A stretch of DNA of 64,000 bases. Source: Galaxea fascicularis. Taxonomy: Eukaryota; Cnidaria; Anthozoa; Scleractinia; Euphylliidae. Under the pieces are notes generated by a model. That model made no database searches. It was not told where the DNA came from and saw only the letters and a list, made by a program, of their open reading frames with translations. A program made the translations under genes and the position numbers. Numbering within the stretch: position 1 is the stretch's first letter; each line of letters starts with the position of its first letter. Shown here in pieces: positions 1,466-49,100 of the stretch. The stretch spans positions 17,887,675 to 17,951,674 of the forward strand of contig OX419347.1 of assembly GCA_948470475.1 (NCBI GenBank), read 5' to 3'.

Positions 1466-4400
1466 GAAATCGTGGAAGACAGTGTCCTTAAGAAAGCACA
1501 ACGTGGTTTATTCTTCGGTAAACCGAAGTTTGGCATTTTCGTTACCGCCTGGTATAAGGAAGATCTGTCTCCGGATAACCCTGAAGTACATAAAGGGATT
1601 CTGGAAGCCGTTTGTGACGTCATCAAATACGCCCTTGATCTGGAGAAAGCTGAAGGAAGTGGTAAACATTCACCCTCTTATTGTCATTTCTGTTTAGTTT
1701 TGAGATCTGAACATGTACTCTTACAATCGTTTGCGAACGAAAGCCGACGTTTTGCTCAAAAGCTTTCATTTGACTTTTGTTGCACATGTACAGGATTTCA
1801 TTCACAGCACTCAAAAAAGATTGGAACGTCCTTGTACGGAAGCACCACAGGAGTAATACTCGGAAACGTTTATGTAAATGGTCACACTTAAGGATGTCAT
1901 CAACAGACTCAAAAGTAGAACCAGCTTGTGCAGCATAATAAACAAGTATAACCACAGAAAAGTAGTGCTCAGTAGCTTTTGTTTGAATGGTCACACTTAA
2001 TCCGTAGGATTTCACCCACAGATTCAAAAGTTAGAACAACTTTGTACATCAGTTGTTCATGATAAACAGCACCACAGGAAATGGCTGCTCAGTAGCTTTT
2101 GTTTGAATGGCCATACTTTAGGATTGTTTTAGTCATGATATACTGAAACAGTGAGATAATAGACGGAGGATTTTGAATTAATTTAATCCCGTCAGCAATT
2201 ACGATTTTCGCGTTTTCTCGGAATTAAATACCACTTGCTATCTCGAGTTCGAGTAGCCAACCAGAGAGCGCGAAAAACGCAATCCACTGTTTTAATATGA
2301 TACTAAATTCGTAGCCTCAATTATCTGTTATCTCTACTCAGGATCGCGCACAAGAGCCATTGTCGCTTTTAACCCAAACCAATGGAGTAAGTGGTACAAA
2401 GATGACCCCAAGCTAGCAAATCTGGAACTGCGAACTGGAAAACAGCTCGTTGAAGACTCTCAGAAATTCCTGGACACCGGAGGAGATGTGTACTTCCTTC
2501 TTAAGTCCGACGTACAGGGCGAGCTCGAAAAGGTGCTGGACAAGATTAAGGAGAAAATGAATCCTTTTTGTCACAATTTCGATGTGACAAAATCGCAACC
2601 CCCAAGCAAGGTACGGAACTACCAACACTAATTGTTTCGGTTGGTATTTTATAAGGGACGATTATCCTATGCTTTTCATCATGCGACTCGTGTGAACAGC
2701 CACTTTAATTTCTTTACAAATCAAGTTATGAAGGGAGTGGTTGGAACGGAGTGGAGGAGGACGTTGACTAAAAAGGTGGTGTTAGCGTTGTGTCTGCCTC
2801 ATTGAATCCCGTCCGACACACAAAACACATACTCTAAAAAGTTAGATAAGACTTGCTTCGCTCGTAGAAACAGATCTTGTGTTAAAAAATTTAAAACCGA
2901 AAAAACAAAAATTGCAGCAGTAAGCCATAGACAACACGATAAAACACAAGAAGAGAAATTCGCGCCATTGTTACCAAACAGGAGGAAATAAGTAAACGCA
3001 AATCACGATAGGTTCTAGTTTTCACACCCCAATGATGAAAATATTGCAGCACGTAGAATCGATACTTGACATAAACTAAGGTAATATCGCATCAGAAAAG
3101 CAAGACTATAGCAAACGTTAATAAAAACTGATTCTTCTTATAATCACAAGTAAAACACACCCCAAGGTCCATATTTCCAAGCCTAGTTTGGAGGCAAATT
3201 TACATAGTAAATCCCTCCCAACTTGAGGAAAATATGTTGCACTGAGGCTCTCTTTTACTAAATGAATCAAAGGCGCGCAGTTTGTATTGTCTGGCTCAGT
3301 CATAGGGTCGAAATAAAAGCAAATACCTTTGTGTCTGGGCGAAATCGTCAGCCAGTAGGGGGTTGAATGTGATTTTAAATAACAAGAGTCCCTTTTTCTC
3401 TTCATTCTAGCGGATCCTCCAAAATTCGTTTACTGACGGAGTTGCAAATCCTTGCGATACTGAGGGCATAAAGAGTTACATTGTGAAGAACGAAGGTGCA
3501 TTGTCGGGCTACCCCGGGTCAACATACCTATTGTCTCAAAAGTTTCAGTTTAACTGGACAGTTCTGGGGCAAATGGATAAGGTAGGAAAATTGATGCAAA
3601 CATTTAATTCGCGGATTCTCCTTGGTGTTTGGTATAACAGTAACTTTTGACGCTTGTAACATTGACAAATACAGAAACTGTCGTTGCTTTCAATGAAGGA
3701 TAATGATAATGATGACGATGATGATGATGATTTTGATGGTGGTCAGTGGACTTGTTTGGAACATAAGTTTATAAACGAACTACCTCAATTTATTACTGTT
3801 TGATTTATATTGCATTGTTTTCTTGCGGTTTCTGCTTTCTCTGCGTACAACTTCTTTCGTTCCAACTTCAACAAACAATCCCACAACCACTTGCGAGACT
3901 AATCACGTTTCAAAAGGGAGCTATTTGAACTCCCCCCCCCCTACCCTTCACTCGTACCCTCGTACCCTGAGTACGTCCTCACTTGACCTGCGATAAGGCG
4001 TTCTTTCTTTCTTTCTTTGCCTTTCTCGTTCAGCTTACTCCCCACTCCTCCCCCGTACCCTTATAGAATAAGCCATCGAGGATTGGTTATAGATTCTTAT
4101 TCGTCTCCCATAGATTCAGAAAGAAGACATGATCGGAAGAAAATCTGGCACCGACACGTTCATTCCTCACACGGACAAGCGTGCTCATATCACATGCGTG
4201 CACGTGGTGAAAGACGTTACGCCCTTGAACGTTCTGTTGCGCCATCCACGAATTTTTCGCGTGTCCATGCCTTATGGCCACGTAAAGGATGAACCCTCAA
4301 AAGAAGAAGGTCTGATGTATCTTCACATGTGCAACACGACGGAGGTTTTTAAGACTATTCTGAGGAACATCGCTGGTAATGACAAGGAATCTAAGATGGG

Positions 4401-4508
4401 GGAGGTTACGGTTGACAAGTTGATCAGTGCCGTTCAGCCTCTCCAGGGAACCTTTTGGTATGTTCCAAGCGCTGAGGAATTGAAGCTGCCTACTTTGAAG
4501 GAACGAAG
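1466..4508 (+). other. DyP peroxidase module of the fusion (exons 1-4)
   Basis: The order of motifs follows P-type DyPs. An opening ferredoxin-like half contains RAIVAFNPNQWSKW (residues about 69-82). Then comes the distal haem-pocket loop SFTDGVANP with Asp164 (family GFxDGxxNP; the first Gly is Ser here), then GSTYLLSQKFQFNW, corresponding to the GGSY...QKY strand. MIGRKSGT follows (family IGR.K), with AHI at His237 as the expected proximal haem ligand. IFRVSMPYG holds the expected distal Arg261, and GTFWYVPS corresponds to the closing GT.FF.P strand. Asp, Arg and His are therefore all present, so a working haem site is plausible. The extreme N-terminus is not visible, so targeting cannot be judged. 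The family assignment rests on remembered motifs, not on a search. Confidence 0.88.
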
Positions 4509-7500
4509 GTATAAATAGCTGCTTTGACTTTGGCATTTTTTGATCATCTCTGCAGTATGTTTTAAAGAAGTACTTGTATTTGATTGAGTAAGCCATCACT
4601 GAGACTTACGCTAATCTTATCAATTGTCGTGCCTGAAACAACTTTCAACTTTCATGTCTCAAAGCAGCCCATTCTTTATTTCTTTCTTTTCTTTCTTTTT
4701 TTTTTTTTCAGATTTGAAATCCTGGACTTTTGGAATCTCCGCAGTCCGAATAATGACTACCTTTTCTACAATCAGAAAGAGTACCTATACCGCATGACGA
4801 CTGGTGGGTACGCCCCAGGGGACCCCCCAAGTGATCGTGTCCTTGGGCTGCTGGGTTATGCCTTCCTACAGTGGAATGATCAGTGGTTTAAGCGCAGGGA
4901 AATGCCAAAATTTCCACATCTCTTAAAGAGTGTTAAAGAGAAACGGAGACTTACTTTAGACGGAGCTTCTATAATGATCCGTAAAGGATGGGCTACGAAG
5001 GTGCAAGACGTTTATTATTCTGTTAGCCCTTGAAGACGCCTGAGCGAAATATTTTAATGTTAACAGCGTTTTAACGGCGCGTTCTATTCCGTATTAGTAT
5101 TAATCTACTGGCGTTCTATCACGAATGCCGGTCTCTGATTGGCTATGCTACTCGCTATCTATTATGAGATAGATAGTGAGTAGCGTTTGTCAACAAAGTG
5201 GTGGCCGCCGGCTTCTTTGCGTTTTCAAGTGCACGTGTCTACGGGGAGAATTTAGATAATTTACTTGTTTAGTTTTGAATGACTAGTAGATTTATTCTAA
5301 AACAATTCATTGTTTCTCTCGATTTCTATGCGTGATAGAAATCTCGAGCTCATAATCTAATTGTTAAATAGGGATATGCATTCTCTTGCAAATGTTATGG
5401 CGGGAAAATCGTGCGCGGCCCGCTAGCTTGCCCGCGACGTGGCACCGGAAGTCAAGTTCAGACACTCGGTCCAGACTATTCTGTGCACTCCGCTGAGGTC
5501 TCCTCCGCTAAGACCATTCTGTTTTTAAAATACATGTTGCTTTGGAAAACCATATTTGGCGCATTATGTAATTCCTAACCCGGGATATTGTTGTAGGTCA
5601 CTTTGGGGAGGTTCCTTACCACAAACAAGGCAAACAAGCTGGAAGATCCAACCTTCTTTGGCCGCAGAGCTGATGTATTCAGCATTCATCCTGATGAGTT
5701 GATTGTAGGCAGAATGCCTCCGTGTTTTTCCTTGGGTCTCGGCAAGCGTGTGATGCCATACCTACGTGAGGATGAGCAGATGCCTGCTTTCATGAAAGGC
5801 CTCAGCGAAGCCGCAGGAATGGGTCATGTGATACCAGACTACGAGACCTTACTGCAGAAAGGTTGGGCCAAGATCAATTTTATCTCCATGCTTACAAGAC
5901 CCTTTGTGCACTTGTAATTTTGTTTGTTTGTTTTTGTAACCAAATGAGACTCTTCTTGAAGCCTTCACATGGATCAAAAAGCAACACAACAAATAAAGCC
6001 TCGAGACACGAAAAATAACGATAACTCTGGAAGTTAAGCTTGATGGAATTGGATTCTGTTTGCACCAAGACTATTTGTTGGTTATTTTGAGACAATCAAA
6101 GGAAAAGTCATTACACTGTCTTGGTTTTGCTCTTCATGTATTATCATTGAATTTACGAAGCTTATTTTTGTAAGGATAACTGTCGTAACTTGGTAACGAT
6201 GATTTTTGCTATAGGCTTAGCAAAGATGAAACAAGAGATGAACGCTAACATGGGAGAAACGACGGAGCAACGCGAGTTTGTGGCCTCCTGCATGCTGGCT
6301 TTGGATGGAGTTCAAAAGTACATTAGGAACTTCGGATTCTTGGCAGGATACCTGGCTCAGAACAGACAACTGGCCTTTTCTGATGCTCACAGGGAAAACT
6401 TAAAGAAGGTAAAAGTTGCTTGTCTATCAATACTTCATTTAGCAGGGAGACGCTATGGACAATAATTCTCAAATTAAAATTTAGTAAGTAATACGCTAAC
6501 TAAAACATTTAAGCAGAGAATGTCTTGTGTTTTGAAACCAAGGGTATCCTAGAGAAGTTTAAATACTCTGTAGCATTGATAGAACCTTATTTACACACTC
6601 GCTGTCTTTTCAGATTGAGGCCAGAATGAACAAGATCGCCACCGATCGCCCAGAAACATTTATTGAAGCAGTTCAGTTGCTGTTCTCCTTTCATTGTTGT
6701 CTGCATCTATCAGGGGAACCAGTGTCAATTGGCCGAATGGATCAGCTTCTGGAACCGTTCCTCCAAGGGACATCCCACGTGGAGGCACAGGAAATTATTG
6801 ATTGCCTGTTTGTGAAGCTCTGTGAGCACGTACACGTCAACACCCGACTGCTGAATGATTTAGGGGCCTGGGGCACGACTGCTGTGCCTTATGCCAGCAC
6901 TGGAATGTTTCCTAATGGAGATACCATCAACCAATGGGTACAACAGGTAGGGACACTTAGTGTGGTATAAAATACGATGTGTACAGTCTTATCGTTCTGT
7001 GTGATTGTTGAGATCTTGCCCTTCGACCGAGTCTGTGTCATGTTGGTTTGTAATTGCCATTTTTATTTGGGAAAGCGCAAAACTACTTGGTATCCCCTGG
7101 TTACAAGAATTACAAATCAAGATCCCGCAAATTGAAGCTTACAATCTCCACAGTCCCACGGAACTGTAAACAGTCTGCACAACAGAAGGTATGATACTGT
7201 CGTTTATTTGGAAAATGAATAATTTGGCCGGCAAAAATCTTCTAATGCAGTAAATCGAGGAAATGTGTGCAGCGCTGTGTGAAGTAATAACCAGACTGGG
7301 TGCGACATTTCTCACTTTCTGTTACAAGTATCGAGTATCTAATGTCTAATTTAGGAATAAGGAGAATTCTTTCTTTGACCCTTAACGTCACAAAGGTGAC
7401 CCCCATCTAACTTCTCCTTATCGTATCACTGGTTTGTCAAGCTTACAAGGCATGAGAATACAGGAAATGATCACCGGGGATCACCTGATTTACGTTTATA

Positions 7501-10500
7501 CAAATTCTCCCTACATGTAACATAAGAAACATATGACAGCTGTAAGTCGAATTCAAATGTTGATATCAAAGATTAAAAGGTTTAAACGTAGATACTCAAT
7601 GTAAGCAGCTGCTATTACTTTTTATCAGCTTTTTTTTGTTTTTCGTCTTCAGGTCACTGTGGGTGGTTACAAGGCCAATGATGCCAGAGATCCAGAGGAT
7701 GGATGTAACGCCATTACAATCATGTGTCTGAAGGCCTCGCGCAGACTGCCACTGAATGCTCCCTGCCTGTCCCTGAGAATGCACAAAAACATGCCCCAAG
7801 AGGTCCTTAATATCATTTGTTCCTAATGTAACAAATGTGCGTCTTTTAATTGTGTAGTCATCATTGTTTGACATCTGTTACAATTTCATGATGATCACAA
7901 TAATAATTTGTAAGGATGACACTGAGGAGAAGAAGGTGGTTGAGGATGAGGATACGAAACGATACGATACGATAATAACTGGAAACGTACGATTTACCAG
8001 AAATGAAACTTCTAACCACGCCCCTTATCCAAAAAAATATACTTTTGTAATTTCATTTTTATTAATGAGTCATCGTCTAGGCTAGGCAAAAGCTGATTCT
8101 AATCTTCAATTGTCAAACTTACCTTGTTCTACTTAGGTTCTTCAAGAGGCAGCTAAGGCCATCCTCAGTGGCGGGGCCCATCCTGTCCTTCTGAATGATT
8201 GCCACTTGATAGAGGGCCTCATGGAAGCTGCGACGCCCGATTTACCAGTCAGCCTGAAAAGTGCGCGAAACTATTCTTGTGATGGCTGTTATGAGCCCAT
8301 CTTCCCAGGGGAAACTGATTTCTCCTTAGCATACGTGGCTTTATTGCAAATTCTGGAAATGACAATCAATCATGGATCTACTTACGCGATGGCTGGCCCA
8401 GCTTACTTGGAAGGGGCACCACAGTCGTTCCCTACACCGCCCGCAGAGGAGATCATTAGCTTTGAACAGGTTTGGTGCAAGCGTTCATTTTTAACGTGAA
8501 GATAGTAACTGTGTGGGAAAAAGCTTTGATGTTGAGCGTCAGGGTCAAAACACAGTTGAGAGAGCAATGAAATATTTATCTTAGAAAATACTTTCCTTAA
8601 CCTTAAAAAAGACAATGTGTCGTAAAGTACGGAGAGAGCAGTCAGATTTCGCTTTTTAGTGTAGTGGGGCGTTCATCTTCATTGTATGTGAATTAGACGA
8701 ATTTCTGCAGAAGTCGTACCGGCAGTCTGATAGAGTAAATAAATGAACAGTGGGTTTGGCAACTCGCGATTTTTTTTCACCATAACAAGAAGAGTTTAGC
8801 AACCACTTCGGGCTCCCATTTTCAAAGAATGTAGCGTTTTGTGCCTAGTACATAATCCAGTCGCTCATAACGTCAAATTTCTCCCGCGAGTCGGAGGTTC
8901 GAAAATGGCGTTTGAAAAAACGACGACCTGGCTACTGACACTCAACTTTCGCGGTCATTTTCAACCAGTAATTTCGGTAATTTAAGCTGATAAATACCTC
9001 TCTATAGTACTGTGTTTTCACATTGCCTCTTTTCTTTCCCCCCATTTAGCTAAAGGAGATTTTCGCACTCCATCTGCGCGTGCGCACAGAGTATAACATT
9101 TTCGGCCTTCTCCTCAACTATGGCAACATTGTGGAGTTCTGTCCCAGCCCTTTACTCTCCTCGGTCATCCGTGGTTGTCAAGAAACTAAGCGTGACATTT
9201 ACGATGGAGGTGCTAACTATACAATGATTGGGGTGCAGTTCATCTCTTTTGCCAACACCGTAGACGCCCTGTACGCGATCAAAAGGCTGTGTTTTGACCA
9301 CGATTCAGCTGTCTTTTCCTTGTCTGAGATGGTTCGTTGTCTCAAGTGCGACTGGGGATACAACATGCAAGAGCCCTTCCATGACGAACTCGCAGGCTCA
9401 ACACGTGGCCAGCGGCTGTCTGACACGTACAAGGAGGCGCGGGAGAGAGCGATGTTGCTGCCCAAATTTGGAACCAGTGAAGGCGCAGAAAATTCGGATA
9501 TTCAGGATATCACCAGGTTAGACTCGAAAGGCTGAGATTCCTTTTGTCCCTTTCATGCTCAGCCGTAATTTCTTATTGTTGAGAGGTCAATGATAGAGGT
9601 GTCTCGCAAGCCTTTACGTGCACATTAATATCAACAGCGTTTAGAGTTCCATGTTTATGATTTATGATTTCCGGCACTGCAGCAACAGGTAATCGGTAAC
9701 CCACTTAGACTTTTTGTCTCAAAGACCTTCACTTTCTTTATAGCTGGTTGGCTGAGCAAGTCACAAATGTGACCAAGAAAGTTGCCCGCGATGCCCCGGC
9801 TGGACAACCGCTGAGAGGACTCATTGACGGTTTGAAGAAGAAATACTCGGTTCCTGAAGCACCATGGGATGTGTTATTACCCACAGGCTCAGGGACATTT
9901 GAAGGATACGTCGGGTGGGGACAGTCATGCGCAGCATCTGCTGACGGGAGACGGGCAGGCACACCTATTGCCTCAGATTTAAGTGCCTCCATAACTCCAT
10001 TCGACAAACCCGCCACAGCTAAGAGCTCTGACGTCTACAAGTAAGTTTAGGTTCTTTCTGCAGGTACCGGAGCACAAACGACATAAAACAAATGAAACAA
10101 AAGACAGAACATAAAAGAACGCCAAATAAAGACTAATCCCAAGTGAACAAAATACAATGCTTTCCGGTTCCTGCAGAAAGACCTAAACATTAACCCTATA
10201 AACCGTAAGATAAAACTTTAAATTCTCATTTGTTATCTCTACACATTTCCTATAGAAATAGTGGGAAGAAGTTGTCAAAATATCAAGCAAATCTTGTGTG
10301 ATCCTGTCGAGACCACTCCATTTTATAACTGGTTGATATTACAAAGAGAAACTTGATGCTGATCACTCATAGGGTTTAAGGGTTAAGTGAGGGACCAAAT
10401 TTAAACGCCTTAAAACGCCTGAATCGTGTTATCAGAACACTGATATTTTTTGACAAACGTGTAACAGATTTCTTTTTCACCTGACCTTTTGTGACGTTGA

Positions 10501-11563
10501 CTTTCAAGATTTTTCAGTCTCAGTCCAAAGCCATCTTCTTGTCGACGTTGGAAATGATTCTTTTTTAAATGTAATTTAGGTCTTTGCAGTCCTGGGACAT
10601 GCGGTCCATCAACGTTGGATTCGCCAACGGTGCCGAGGTTGGTTTGAAGATCGCGGAAAACTTTAAAGAAAGCGACGTGGTGGCCTTGCTGAAGAATTAT
10701 GCCGACGGAAATGGGATCGGTGGAAACATTTTGACAAGTACGTTAAAAACTGCCGTGTGAAGGGGAAGGGGGGATTTTTACTCCTCCCCCCTCCGCCCCC
10801 TACCCTCTCCACCCTTCACAAAGGGATGAACGGGGTAGGCGTTGTGTAATTTTTCCATTCAAGGTAGTCTTCGCTCAACTTATTTTATTTTATTCTGTTT
10901 TTACTGAAATTTATTTCAATGACCATTAGACAATAAGGCTCTGTCTTACCAGTTAACGTCCTCCTTGGAAGTTCTTTCATAGAGACTTGGAGTGATTCCA
11001 ACTCAACCCCTAAGCCGCAAATTCTACAGTCTCCTCCCGCCCACATAATAACGAAAATGGGTCATGAAGCGGATATTTCCCTTTAGTCCTTATTCACTCA
11101 AAAACCAAAATGTACAAACGGCTGAAACTTCTTGGTTACAATTAACAGGAACAGTTATTTCTTATTACTTTCTTAACTGTCATATTCAACTGCTTATCGG
11201 TAGGAATCTTTCAAGCCAGACCGTTCGCTTTTGTAATACCGAAAATATAAATGTAATGATGAATGAATGAATAAATAAATGAGATCCAGATTAAAATCAA
11301 GCAACTTTAAAGTTTTTTTTTTTTTTTGTAAGCCCTTTTTTTATATTGCTTCAAGTGCTATGTTTATAATTTCAATGTTTATAATTTCATTTCTTATTGT
11401 AGTCATCTGCGCTGACCCGGACACATTTGCCAATGCTCAGAAGAACCCGGAGAAGTACGATCTGATTCGAGTACGCACAGGGGGCTGGAACGAATTTTAC
11501 ATCACCTTTTTCACTGCTCACCAGAAGCACATGGAGAGGAGAATCTATTACCACGTATCATGA
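1466..11563 (+). CDS. DyP-type peroxidase / glycyl radical enzyme fusion (5' partial)
   Basis: Fourteen exons are visible: 1466-1661, 2342-2610, 3411-3581, 4114-4508, 4712-5000, 5597-5861, 6215-6408, 6614-6946, 7653-7802, 8137-8469, 9050-9516, 9744-10040, 10580-10737 and 11403-11563. Every junction has AG/GT borders and matching phase, and the total is 3678 bases, giving 1225 residues plus TGA. Residues 1-344 form a P-type (YfeX-like) dye-decolourising peroxidase; about 345-1225 form a pyruvate formate-lyase-like glycyl radical enzyme that ends with the radical glycine loop. A haem peroxidase uses H2O2 to oxidise substrates; glycyl radical enzymes make a thiyl radical at an active-site Cys to cleave or dehydrate substrates, usually without oxygen. 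The reaction of this fusion is unknown. The start codon is missing: the first visible exon has a good polypyrimidine acceptor, so an upstream exon should exist. Thirteen introns argue against bacterial contamination. Numbering counts from the first visible codon. Confidence 0.9.
1755..2130. repeat. Dispersed ~110 bp minisatellite, intron copy
   Basis: About three diverged units lie in intron 1 of the DyP-GRE gene. Each contains GGTCACACTTAAGGAT, a CACAGACTCAAAAGTTAGAAC segment, CACCACAGGA and CTCAGTAGCTTTTGTTTGAA. The same unit recurs at 16810-17230, 45690-46145 and 48888-48965. Confidence 0.75.
7385..7525. repeat. Dispersed repeat, copy 1 (intron 8 of DyP-GRE)
   Basis: This stretch shares an ordered set of words (CTACTCCTTA-like, GTTTGTCAAG, TACAAGGCATGAGAATACA, AAATTCTCC.CACATGTA) with 62278-62410. 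It is non-coding. Confidence 0.7.
10041..10195. repeat. Intron inverted repeat
   Basis: In intron 12, GTTTAGGTTCTTTCTGCAGG near 10046-10066 is matched in inverse by CCTGCAGAAAGACCTAAAC near 10172-10190, with about 100 bases between. It could fold in the transcript. No function is implied. Confidence 0.6.
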
Positions 11564-46100: not shown

Positions 46101-49100
46101 GAGCTCCCATTTGAATTGTTACGATAAATCTTTTCAACCGTATATACAAATGTTAAAGCCGCTTTGAACAACACAAACAAAGGCCCATAATTAACTCAGG
46201 CACAAACCTTGCAACTAAGAATTCAGCAAACAAGAATTTCATTTGTAAAACCCTATAAAACTGATTTTTTGCAGCCCATAACCGCTGACACTTTCCGTGC
46301 AGAGATCGAAGTCGTCGAGCATTGCGACTGCGCAGATATGACACTCTGGCTAGTAGTGATCCTTGTGTTCAAATTCATAATTCTCCTTAGCGGTGGATTT
46401 CTCGCCTGGCAAACAAGACGCTTGTACATTCCAGCATTGAATGACACTCAACACTGCGTAGCTTGTATGTTCATTGCGGTGTTGTTTTGTTTGATTGGGT
46501 GTCCTGTTGCTTTCACGACAATCATGTACCCCAGTGCTTATTATGGTGTTATTGGTCTTCTGATAATCATCGCTACAACAATGATTCTTGTGCTTTTGTT
46601 TACGAACAAGGTGAGTCATTGTTTAGGTAACGGCACAAAATAAAGATCACATCTTTTAAATCATTGGTTATAGAAAACAAAAGTGCACTGAAGTCAGACA
46701 CTCAAACGTAGTGACATGAACTGAGCCCGGCTTATTCTTAGAACGCTTAGAAGTAACCTCATCTCCCAGACAATGAACGTCCGAGTCCATATGATTTTGA
46801 TTCATTGAGTGTACCATAATACTTCAGAAAAAACAAAAAAGTACAAAAAAAAAGCGAACCTTCGTCTCTGATAAGGCTTTATCCTTGTTGGTAATGGGCT
46901 GCTCACAAAGCAGGATCTATTATTGCACGTGTTAATAACCGTTTGTTCTTCCTTTCACCAGATTGCACGCCTGAGCTGCAGACGAAAACAAAACAAGACC
47001 TTGAGGATTGGTCAGTCGTCAACAAACAACAATAAGCACGTATGCGCATGCGGTAGACCTTGTGCAAAAGTATTTTCGTTTTGCACATGTTCTGCTGCCT
47101 GCTGTATCTCCTGCTGCTCGTGTTTTCCGTGCTGCAACTTGTATTCCTGCCTTCGGTCGATCTTCTATGGTTCCCATGTCCACCCGACTGAAGACGACGG
47201 AAAGGGGACTAAAGCTGAGTTTTACATCGCTGGTATTCCGCAAGACAAGGACGCACAGATTATCCACCTCAAGAATGAGCTTCGTGAGGTCTGTTTTACC
47301 TCTGTTTAAGAGAAGCGCACTGTAACTCCAGGGTAATGGTTCCTAGTCTGTTCTAGATAGGCCTTTCACCCCGTTCTCATAATCGTTGTGGCAAGGATTA
47401 AAATAATCTGAAAATTTTTCTACCAGTCTGAATTCTCTTGATAAAAGCAAAATTTCCTCTCCATTTATCCTTCAGTTTAATTTTCTTAGAACGAACCCTT
47501 TTCCTTCTGGATAAGGTACCACTTCATCTCGGGATTCAATCATATGTCTTCAACTTTATTCAAACATTCTTTAGATTCCGTTGACGCGCCTGGGTTAGGA
47601 CAGTCGTTTTAACAAAACGGAGGTTTTGGAACCAGGAACATTCGTTTGAGTATATCTCAGAAAATGCTTCCTTTTCCATGTCATTTTTCTTTCTGTTTAG
47701 AAAAACACTCAGCTAAGCAATCTCGGCACCAAACGCACAGTAAAGACCAACTGGACTCAAACTATGGACGAGAGTTTCATTTGGACACATGAGGACCTCG
47801 ATTCTGACAGCTTGTTGAGTGACAGCAACGTGAGTGACGTGGAGAGTGCAGAGGGGTCAGAAGCCAAACAGCGCTTCCGGCGTGCGGCCAACAAATTTAG
47901 AATCTTTAATCAAGCAACCGATTATTCGCATGTGAGAAGCAAGGTAAATGGACCCAATGAATAAACTGAGTCATCCCGGCTTTATCGAAGCTTTGAACAA
48001 TGCAATTCTAATGAAACCAATCCTTGGATACCGGCGACGGACATACGACAGGCGTAAAAGGAATACATTAAATAAAAATTAGTATATCGTCAGTTGGGGC
48101 CAGTCCTATGAGGGTCTGTGAGTCGTGGAATCATTCAAGACGCGCATGCCTGATTGTCACCCAGGATAAATTCTGGTTGTCTAGCATAATAAGGCATGCA
48201 CAACATACAACAAAGTTAGAACTGTTTAGTGGTGCAGTAATTCGTTGGTTGGTTCGTCGATCGGAGGGTCGGTCGCTCAGTCAATTTGGTTGGATGTTTG
48301 GTCGGGCTGGTCGGTTGGTCTATCATTAATTCACTTGTTCGTTCGTTTATTCATTCGTTCATTCATTCAGTTATCTTTCCTATTGTAGGTGAATACAGGG
48401 CTCCGACAAACATCCCTCGCTCCCAGCTCTTCCCAGCTCAGGAGGGGTTCCCGGATATCAGTGCAACCGTCTCCAGACGAAAATGCGAATAAACTTAAAA
48501 CAACACTGGCACAGGTATGAGCTAGTTCACTGATCCGTGGTTAACAGTCTTCCTTTCGTGCAGTCCCTTATTCTATCGTCTCTTAACACAAAATGTCGTT
48601 AAATCGTTTTGTCGCTTTAGTGTTTTTTAACTTTTTTCTCAATAGACCTACAAATACTTAGAAAACATCAATCGCAATTTGTACGTGTGTAGTGTTATCG
48701 ATATGTCTGGATTGCAATTTTGTTCACAGAGAGATCAAGAAATCGCTAAACTGCGTCAAGAGATCGAAGGACTTAAAACCGGGCAACTTATCGTGAAATC
48801 TCCACAGAGATCTTCACAGGAGCAGGTATTATATTTACGCATTTGTTTCCTTTTCTCTTCCTGATGTAAACCATTGAATATCTGATCGTCTGTAGATACT
48901 CAAAAGTTAGAACCACCTTGTGTAATAAAATAAACAGTACCGCAGAACCGCAGAACCGCAGTCCCGTCAATATTGACTAGACGTCCTTAAAACATAAAAA
49001 TGAATGTGCGGTTTTGGGGGAGGAAGGTTAATGTCTTGCGTACGTTTTAACCAAAATTAAATTTTATGAAAGAAGACGCACTTGCCTCAGGTCTGACACC

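Follow-up and report, generated by a model that had tools for sequence, protein, structure and literature searches.

A predicted peroxidase–glycyl radical enzyme fusion in the coral Galaxea fascicularis is one member of a widespread bacterial family

How could a glycyl radical enzyme (GRE) work when it is joined in one chain to a haem peroxidase? To our knowledge, the GREs described so far are activated by radical S-adenosylmethionine (radical-SAM) enzymes and are damaged by O2. The question is raised by a stretch of 64,000 nucleotides from the stony coral Galaxea fascicularis (contig OX419347.1, positions 17,887,675 to 17,951,674; hereafter the window), in which a gene at 1466–11563 (+) is predicted to encode a DyP peroxidase followed by a GRE. 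Judged from sequence comparison, the animal fusion is one member of a widespread bacterial family and no single-genome oddity. What is new is this animal member, the family-wide linkage of the GRE to a DyP, an altered motif around the radical Gly and the scarcity of activases; one interpretation, to which we give about an even chance, is that the DyP and peroxide would install the GRE radical in place of a radical-SAM activase.

The 14 exons were spliced in silico. Every one of the 13 introns found was GT-AG, the phases were consistent, and the spliced frame comprised 1225 residues and a stop; the exons lay where a preliminary description of this DNA had placed them as one continuous set, and the Asp164, His237, Arg261, Cys805 and Gly1200 that it had named were each found at that number. 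All exons aligned with uninterrupted bacterial fusions of the same two parts (best identity per exon, 0.26 to 0.74), and this alignment continued through the junction of exons 4, 5 and 6, the point at which two separate genes would part. Exon 1 contains no ATG, and no start codon was found. In the nearest bacterial rows, the starts predicted with a simple Met rule lie 9–21 residues ahead of a Gln common at position 12; because exon 1 supplies 11 residues ahead of this shared Gln, the unfound 5′ exon is likely to hold a short piece of a few residues rather than a domain.

It could be argued that two adjacent genes, or bacterial contamination, were mistaken for one animal gene, as the model is known from genomic sequence and intron 4 falls close to where the DyP domain ends. 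However, phase-consistent introns with GT-AG borders and an alignment running across the junction speak against both, and contamination is further opposed by a frame at 46191–46640 (+) of the same contig that matches the class C G-protein-coupled receptor (GPCR) seven-transmembrane domain (7tm_3, E 1.3e-11), as well as by an identity of 39% to the closest bacterial fusion row. We regard this explanation as highly improbable and rejected it on the splicing, the GPCR match and the junction alignment. The same match and the size of the source genome (416.6 Mb in 170 contigs) bear out the animal-like nuclear setting proposed earlier. A single protein, with a P/B-type DyP haem peroxidase and then a complete GRE body, is confirmed as the predicted product.

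In this product, PFL-like (PF02901) was found over residues 505–1033 (E 2.8e-89, 300.9 bits against a cut-off of 24.3) and Dyp_perox_C (PF20628) over residues 161–333 (E 7e-12, 45.9 bits against 20). Both are above their Pfam cut-offs, and the third domain looked for, Gly_radical, stayed below its own (E 8e-4, 20.3 bits against 22.2), as did the NCBIfam Dyp-type peroxidase model (TIGR01413; E 5.2e-25, 88.4 bits against 100.5). The nearest relatives by sequence in the Protein Data Bank (PDB) were glycerol and diol dehydratases for the GRE half and a TyrA-type DyP for the DyP half; YfeX, DypB and TyrA are P-type DyPs with solved structures and without a GRE fusion. The earlier assignments to a P-type DyP and a full GRE both hold, the former as P/B-type by profile, nearest PDB relatives and the intact His, Asp and Arg, and the latter by the PFL-like profile together with Cys805 and Gly1200. 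For a bacterial relative from Andreprevotia (L007), the predicted structure contained both the DyP fold and the GRE barrel fold, and over the aligned fold this model was 21–22% identical to glycerol and 1,2-propanediol dehydratases and CutC choline lyase (1r8w, 5i2g, 5fau).

The low Gly_radical score would suit a GRE body that performs no radical chemistry and serves as a scaffold or a non-radical enzyme, and so would the many carriers that we take to be aerobes. However, in a census of 66 fused rows including the window, the Cys, Glu and Gly corresponding to Cys805, Glu807 and Gly1200 were each present in 66/66, and RxRxGGW surrounded the radical site in 80/80 GRE rows including the window; we consider a GRE body without radical chemistry very doubtful. 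In the window this loop reads RTGGW, and in the canonical outgroups it is RVxGY (4/4). Pieces shorter than 600 residues (L002, L067, L078) stand outside the RxRxGGW count; the second GRE piece of Hymenobacter L002 carries the motif. Because RVxGY is replaced by RxRxGGW, we file the family as GRE-like, not as canonical GRE. In contrast to the dehydratase and CutC GREs, it has the altered motif, a DyP partner and no adjacent activase that we could see.

Trp204, Trp398, Trp402, Trp701, Trp967 and Trp1201 were found in 66/66 rows and Trp80 in 65/66. The window differs from a near-constant residue at ten other positions, with no named catalytic residue among them. Its active site reads GCYE at 804–807. 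Pyruvate formate-lyase (PFL) proper has an adjacent Cys-Cys pair in its active site, which is not present here, and a Cys-X-Glu motif belongs to GREs of the eliminase or dehydratase type; the motif in the window points to an enzyme of this type.

The layout had been thought undescribed, which did not stand: a DyP-B/PFL fusion, with the DyP N-terminal and the PFL C-terminal, was reported in the fungus Chaetomium cochliodes by Zamocky et al. 2016 (PMC5041501). In that paper, the same fusion is stated for other prokaryotes and eukaryotes with citation of a 2014 encyclopedia entry, bacterial transfer is proposed for the fungal fusion and its role is termed “elusive”; the legend of the DyP tree includes Deuterostomia and Mollusca, so animal DyPs of some kind are known, with fusion unstated (PMC5041501). 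Likened by description only, the Chaetomium and window proteins share the N-terminal DyP, the C-terminal PFL/glycyl radical part and a eukaryotic host, whereas one host is a fungus and the other an animal in whose gene 13 introns were found. Among the papers listed in searches of open-access literature, with most subscription papers outside its scope, there was no report of an animal DyP-GRE fusion and no second paper on the fusion. The layout is already known; these searches yielded no account of its function.

Relatives were plentiful in bacteria. By tblastn, a plasmid gene of Asticcacaulis spanned both halves (GRE half 36%, E 6e-138; DyP half 26%, E 5e-25), and a Hymenobacter plasmid locus (L002) contained the GRE in two frames and then a DyP gene. 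An alignment of the three GRE parts was searched against bacterial and archaeal genomes, and the best 80 of 89 relatives were taken, among which were Pseudomonadota, Bacteroidota, Myxococcota, Cyanobacteriota, Actinomycetota, Planctomycetota, Chloroflexota and one Thermodesulfobacteriota metagenome-assembled genome (MAG); with the two plasmids they gave 82 loci. Many carrier genera (e.g., Acinetobacter, Pedobacter, Massilia, Sphingomonas, Ensifer) are known as aerobes. A DyP was tied to the GRE in 79/79 assessable loci, L058, L065 and L081 being cut by contig ends and left out of this count. This survey, run from the GRE side, found the two parts fused in 68 of the 82 loci, and 11 loci had a separate DyP gene directly downstream (L002, L068–L072, L074–L077, L082). 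One open frame of more than 1100 residues held both parts in 65 loci; the remaining fused loci were L078, cut by a contig end, and L055 and L067, with the parts in overlapping or broken frames.

The fused DyPs resemble that of the window (E 2e-40 to L007, 2e-22 to L024). The separate DyPs are nearest to the EfeB type (L074 against 6jbn, E 1.3e-29), and their similarity to fused DyPs was marginal, 2e-6 or weaker in the six compared. In a tree of 45 rows, the separate group was placed, weakly supported (81/47), beside the fused type of greater length; a topology keeping the fused rows together was not rejected (p-AU 0.366). This GRE thus has partners from two DyP subfamilies, an argument that the pairing meets a functional need. 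In two loci the separate DyP frame runs on, by eye, into a HAD-like part (L071, 10117–12249; L075, 10263–12251), and for L071 Pfam names DyP domains only.

Activases were sought in 48 of the 80 genomes, mainly named isolates and in part drafts, with MAGs and short contigs mostly omitted, as a first look. PF02901 matched once in 43 genomes and twice in G005, always DyP-linked as judged from the open frames or loci, and 44/48 had no further PFL-like protein; G008, G009, G034 and G038 had a canonical PFL in addition (E <1e-206). TIGR02494 gave some match at 1e-3 in 39/48 genomes, above its cut-off in only two (G034, G038). Its four strong matches (E 1e-36 or better) adjoin the canonical PFL of the four genomes just named; beyond these four, no genome showed an intact close match to an activase, so that 44/48 bacterial genomes gave none in this search. 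The next match, 4e-20 in a Trinickia genome (G020, L091) whose sole PFL-like gene is the DyP-GRE, consists of short broken frames resembling PFL activase and was rejected as a working activase. Other matches were 1e-10 or weaker; two at about 1e-10 were set aside as activases, since by eye they look like another radical-SAM type. PF13353 was above its low cut-off in 47/48 genomes, mostly weakly, and better than 1e-20, which was taken as NrdG-like, in six only (G003, G016, G025, G034, G038, G041). In all, 40/48 genomes had no intact close match to an activase and no strong NrdG-like one either.

The surroundings of the GRE genes gave a similar result. In the 82 loci, a longest-frame rule called 962 genes, 91 of which encode a GRE or DyP. 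The CX3CX2C motif occurred in 4/962; two of these (L016, L077) resemble radical-SAM proteins, judged by eye to be of other types, and no activase-like gene was seen. The contrast set consisted of four of the 40 plasmid records with a GRE match: these canonical GREs (two of them nearly identical) had a GRE-activating protein adjacent and no DyP listed in the flanks. A canonical GRE with its activase was seen on mobilizable plasmids from Acinetobacter towneri and Moraxella osloensis, both of genera known as aerobes (L083, 5521–8896; L084, 4521–7896).

How the DyP might act on the GRE can be pictured as follows. Compound I would form at the DyP haem with H2O2 or a peroxy compound as the oxidant. 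Conserved Trp residues would carry the oxidising equivalent into the GRE body and so produce a radical at Gly1200 and/or Cys805, which would then abstract hydrogen from a small substrate inside the barrel. The peroxide-oxidised haem of DyPs can oxidise distant Trp and Tyr. In class I ribonucleotide reductase, the beta subunit supplies the radical to a Cys of a related barrel, and the DyP would stand in for the radical-SAM activase in a comparable way; the likeness drawn is one of mechanism, with the barrel Cys radical fed by an oxidised metal cofactor located in another part of the complex, and the reductase employs a di-metal/Tyr cofactor, not haem. This radical-source reading, which we find the most economical, is suggested by the constant Trp residues in both parts and beside the radical Gly and by the change in the loop that radical-SAM activases must recognise; it also fits the scarcity of recognisable activases in most genomes examined and the use of DyPs from two subfamilies. 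From these patterns we infer radical transfer, a peroxide trigger and tolerance of air. The preliminary description had offered peroxide removal and the transfer of a substrate or radical as possible functions; because no recognisable activase was found in most bacterial genomes examined, radical transfer would be favoured and peroxide removal less so.

Several observations weigh against a radical supplied by the DyP, in addition to the Gly_radical score. The distal Asp is replaced by Glu in 41/66 and by His in 2/66 fused rows and Arg261 is absent in 2, and L080 and L008 have DyP pockets that differ from the rest. The DyP frame of Hymenobacter L002 stops before the haem-ligand region, and the GRE frame at that locus is broken too. 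Other radical-SAM proteins occur in nearly all genomes (PF13353 in 47/48; TIGR02494 in 39/48 at 1e-3), and an unrecognised activase may be among them. The main fact against the reading is a putative PFL activase reported for the fungus with the fusion (PMC5041501), so a normal activase is possible in eukaryotes.

The last two points also favour the strongest rival, in which some radical-SAM protein activates the GRE and the tethered DyP merely removes nearby peroxide. A DyP kept close by fusion or as a coupled neighbour would protect the radical locally, and the fungal fusion gene is reported to be induced 3-fold by H2O2 and 18.5-fold by peroxyacetic acid (PMC5041501). Against such a guard, the Gly loop is unlike that of the four outgroups with adjacent activases, and activase-like genes near the 82 loci, as well as intact close matches in 44/48 genomes, were missing. 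Moreover, a DyP clears peroxide rather than O2, the known killer of glycyl radicals, and we judge the guarding role to be rather unlikely. Another possibility is that the DyP oxidises a substrate and the GRE body processes the channelled intermediate, which would use the two complete active sites per chain, with both folds present in the modelled relative, and the ability of DyPs to oxidise many organic compounds. However, the GRE still requires an activator under such a relay, and the occurrence of two DyP subfamilies with one GRE suits a generic oxidant supply over a shared substrate; a relay seems to us quite improbable. Returning to the radical-source reading, its broader form would be a class of glycyl/thiyl radical enzymes for which a haem peroxidase with peroxide acts as the switch in place of radical SAM, which opens glycyl-radical chemistry to aerobes and which was taken into an animal genome; we advance this tentatively, at somewhat less than an even chance.

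The animal copy is probably of old origin, as had been supposed earlier: its protein is at most 39% identical to any of 65 bacterial fusions, and the end branch of the window sequence in the tree is 1.65. The window was placed beside Archangium, Saprospiraceae and betaproteobacterial rows with weak support (84/36, 45 rows), and no donor lineage was assigned in view of this support and of the tree test given above. A viral origin was not adopted: scanning with the GRE half brought up no relative, and the one found with A3 sits on apparently bacterial DNA. This is an intact DyP-GRE frame at 4974–8885 (+) of L094, a contig of 32.9 kb from a viral collection; beside it lie transposase-like and acyltransferase-like frames by eye, and the contig is probably bacterial DNA.

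Table 1. Exons and active-site codons of the predicted DyP-GRE gene, in window coordinates.
Feature	Position	Strand	Basis
Exon 1, residues 1–65, DyP N-terminal part; start upstream	1466..1661	+	splicing, homology
Exon 2, residues 66–155, DyP	2342..2610	+	splicing, alignment
Exon 3, residues 156–212, DyP, contains Asp164	3411..3581	+	splicing, alignment
Distal Asp164 codon, DyP domain	3435..3437	+	Asp 23, Glu 41, His 2 of 66 rows
Exon 4, residues 213–343, DyP, contains His237 and Arg261	4114..4508	+	splicing, alignment
His237 codon, proximal haem ligand	4186..4188	+	His 66/66 rows
Distal Arg261 codon	4258..4260	+	Arg 64/66 rows
Exon 5, residues 344–440, linker and start of GRE body	4712..5000	+	splicing; continuous with bacterial fusions
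Exon 6, residues 441–528, GRE	5597..5861	+	splicing, alignment
Exon 7, residues 529–593, GRE	6215..6408	+	splicing, alignment
Exon 8, residues 594–704, GRE	6614..6946	+	splicing, alignment
Exon 9, residues 705–754, GRE, weak donor GTCCTT	7653..7802	+	splicing; best identity 0.74
Exon 10, residues 755–865, GRE active site	8137..8469	+	splicing, alignment
Cys805-Tyr806-Glu807 codons, GRE active site	8287..8295	+	Cys, Glu 66/66 rows
Exon 11, residues 866–1020, GRE	9050..9516	+	splicing, alignment
Exon 12, residues 1021–1119, GRE	9744..10040	+	splicing, alignment
Exon 13, residues 1120–1172, GRE	10580..10737	+	splicing, alignment
Exon 14, residues 1173–1225 and stop, glycyl radical loop	11403..11563	+	splicing, alignment
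Gly1200 (radical site) and Trp1201 codons, within RxRxGGW	11483..11488	+	motif in 80/80 family rows

Genes of phosphoesterase type were found within 4 kb in 35/82 loci, with Pfam backing only for the PLD-like, PF04185 and 5′-nucleotidase groups (24/82 loci); no function is stated for DUF2608, and the HAD-like and histidine-phosphatase-like labels of neighbours were given by eye. PLD-like genes recur near fused and separate DyP-GREs alike (12/82 loci). The co-directional genes scanned matched 37 Pfam families downstream (53 genes) and 29 upstream (40 genes). No substrate is claimed from these neighbours, as the families differ between clades and the counts are without a background rate. Genes of DUF2278 and SUMF1/EgtB-like type lie directly upstream of the Asticcacaulis DyP-GRE (L001, 8323–10410).

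The pattern across the family is likely to make it a new GRE variant. In every locus open to judgement the GRE was tied to a peroxidase, often in aerobes and, for the most part, with no activase that could be recognised; whether haem can install a glycyl or thiyl radical is thereby directly testable. If it does, radical chemistry would be initiated in a new way, and the animal copy would place such chemistry in a metazoan.

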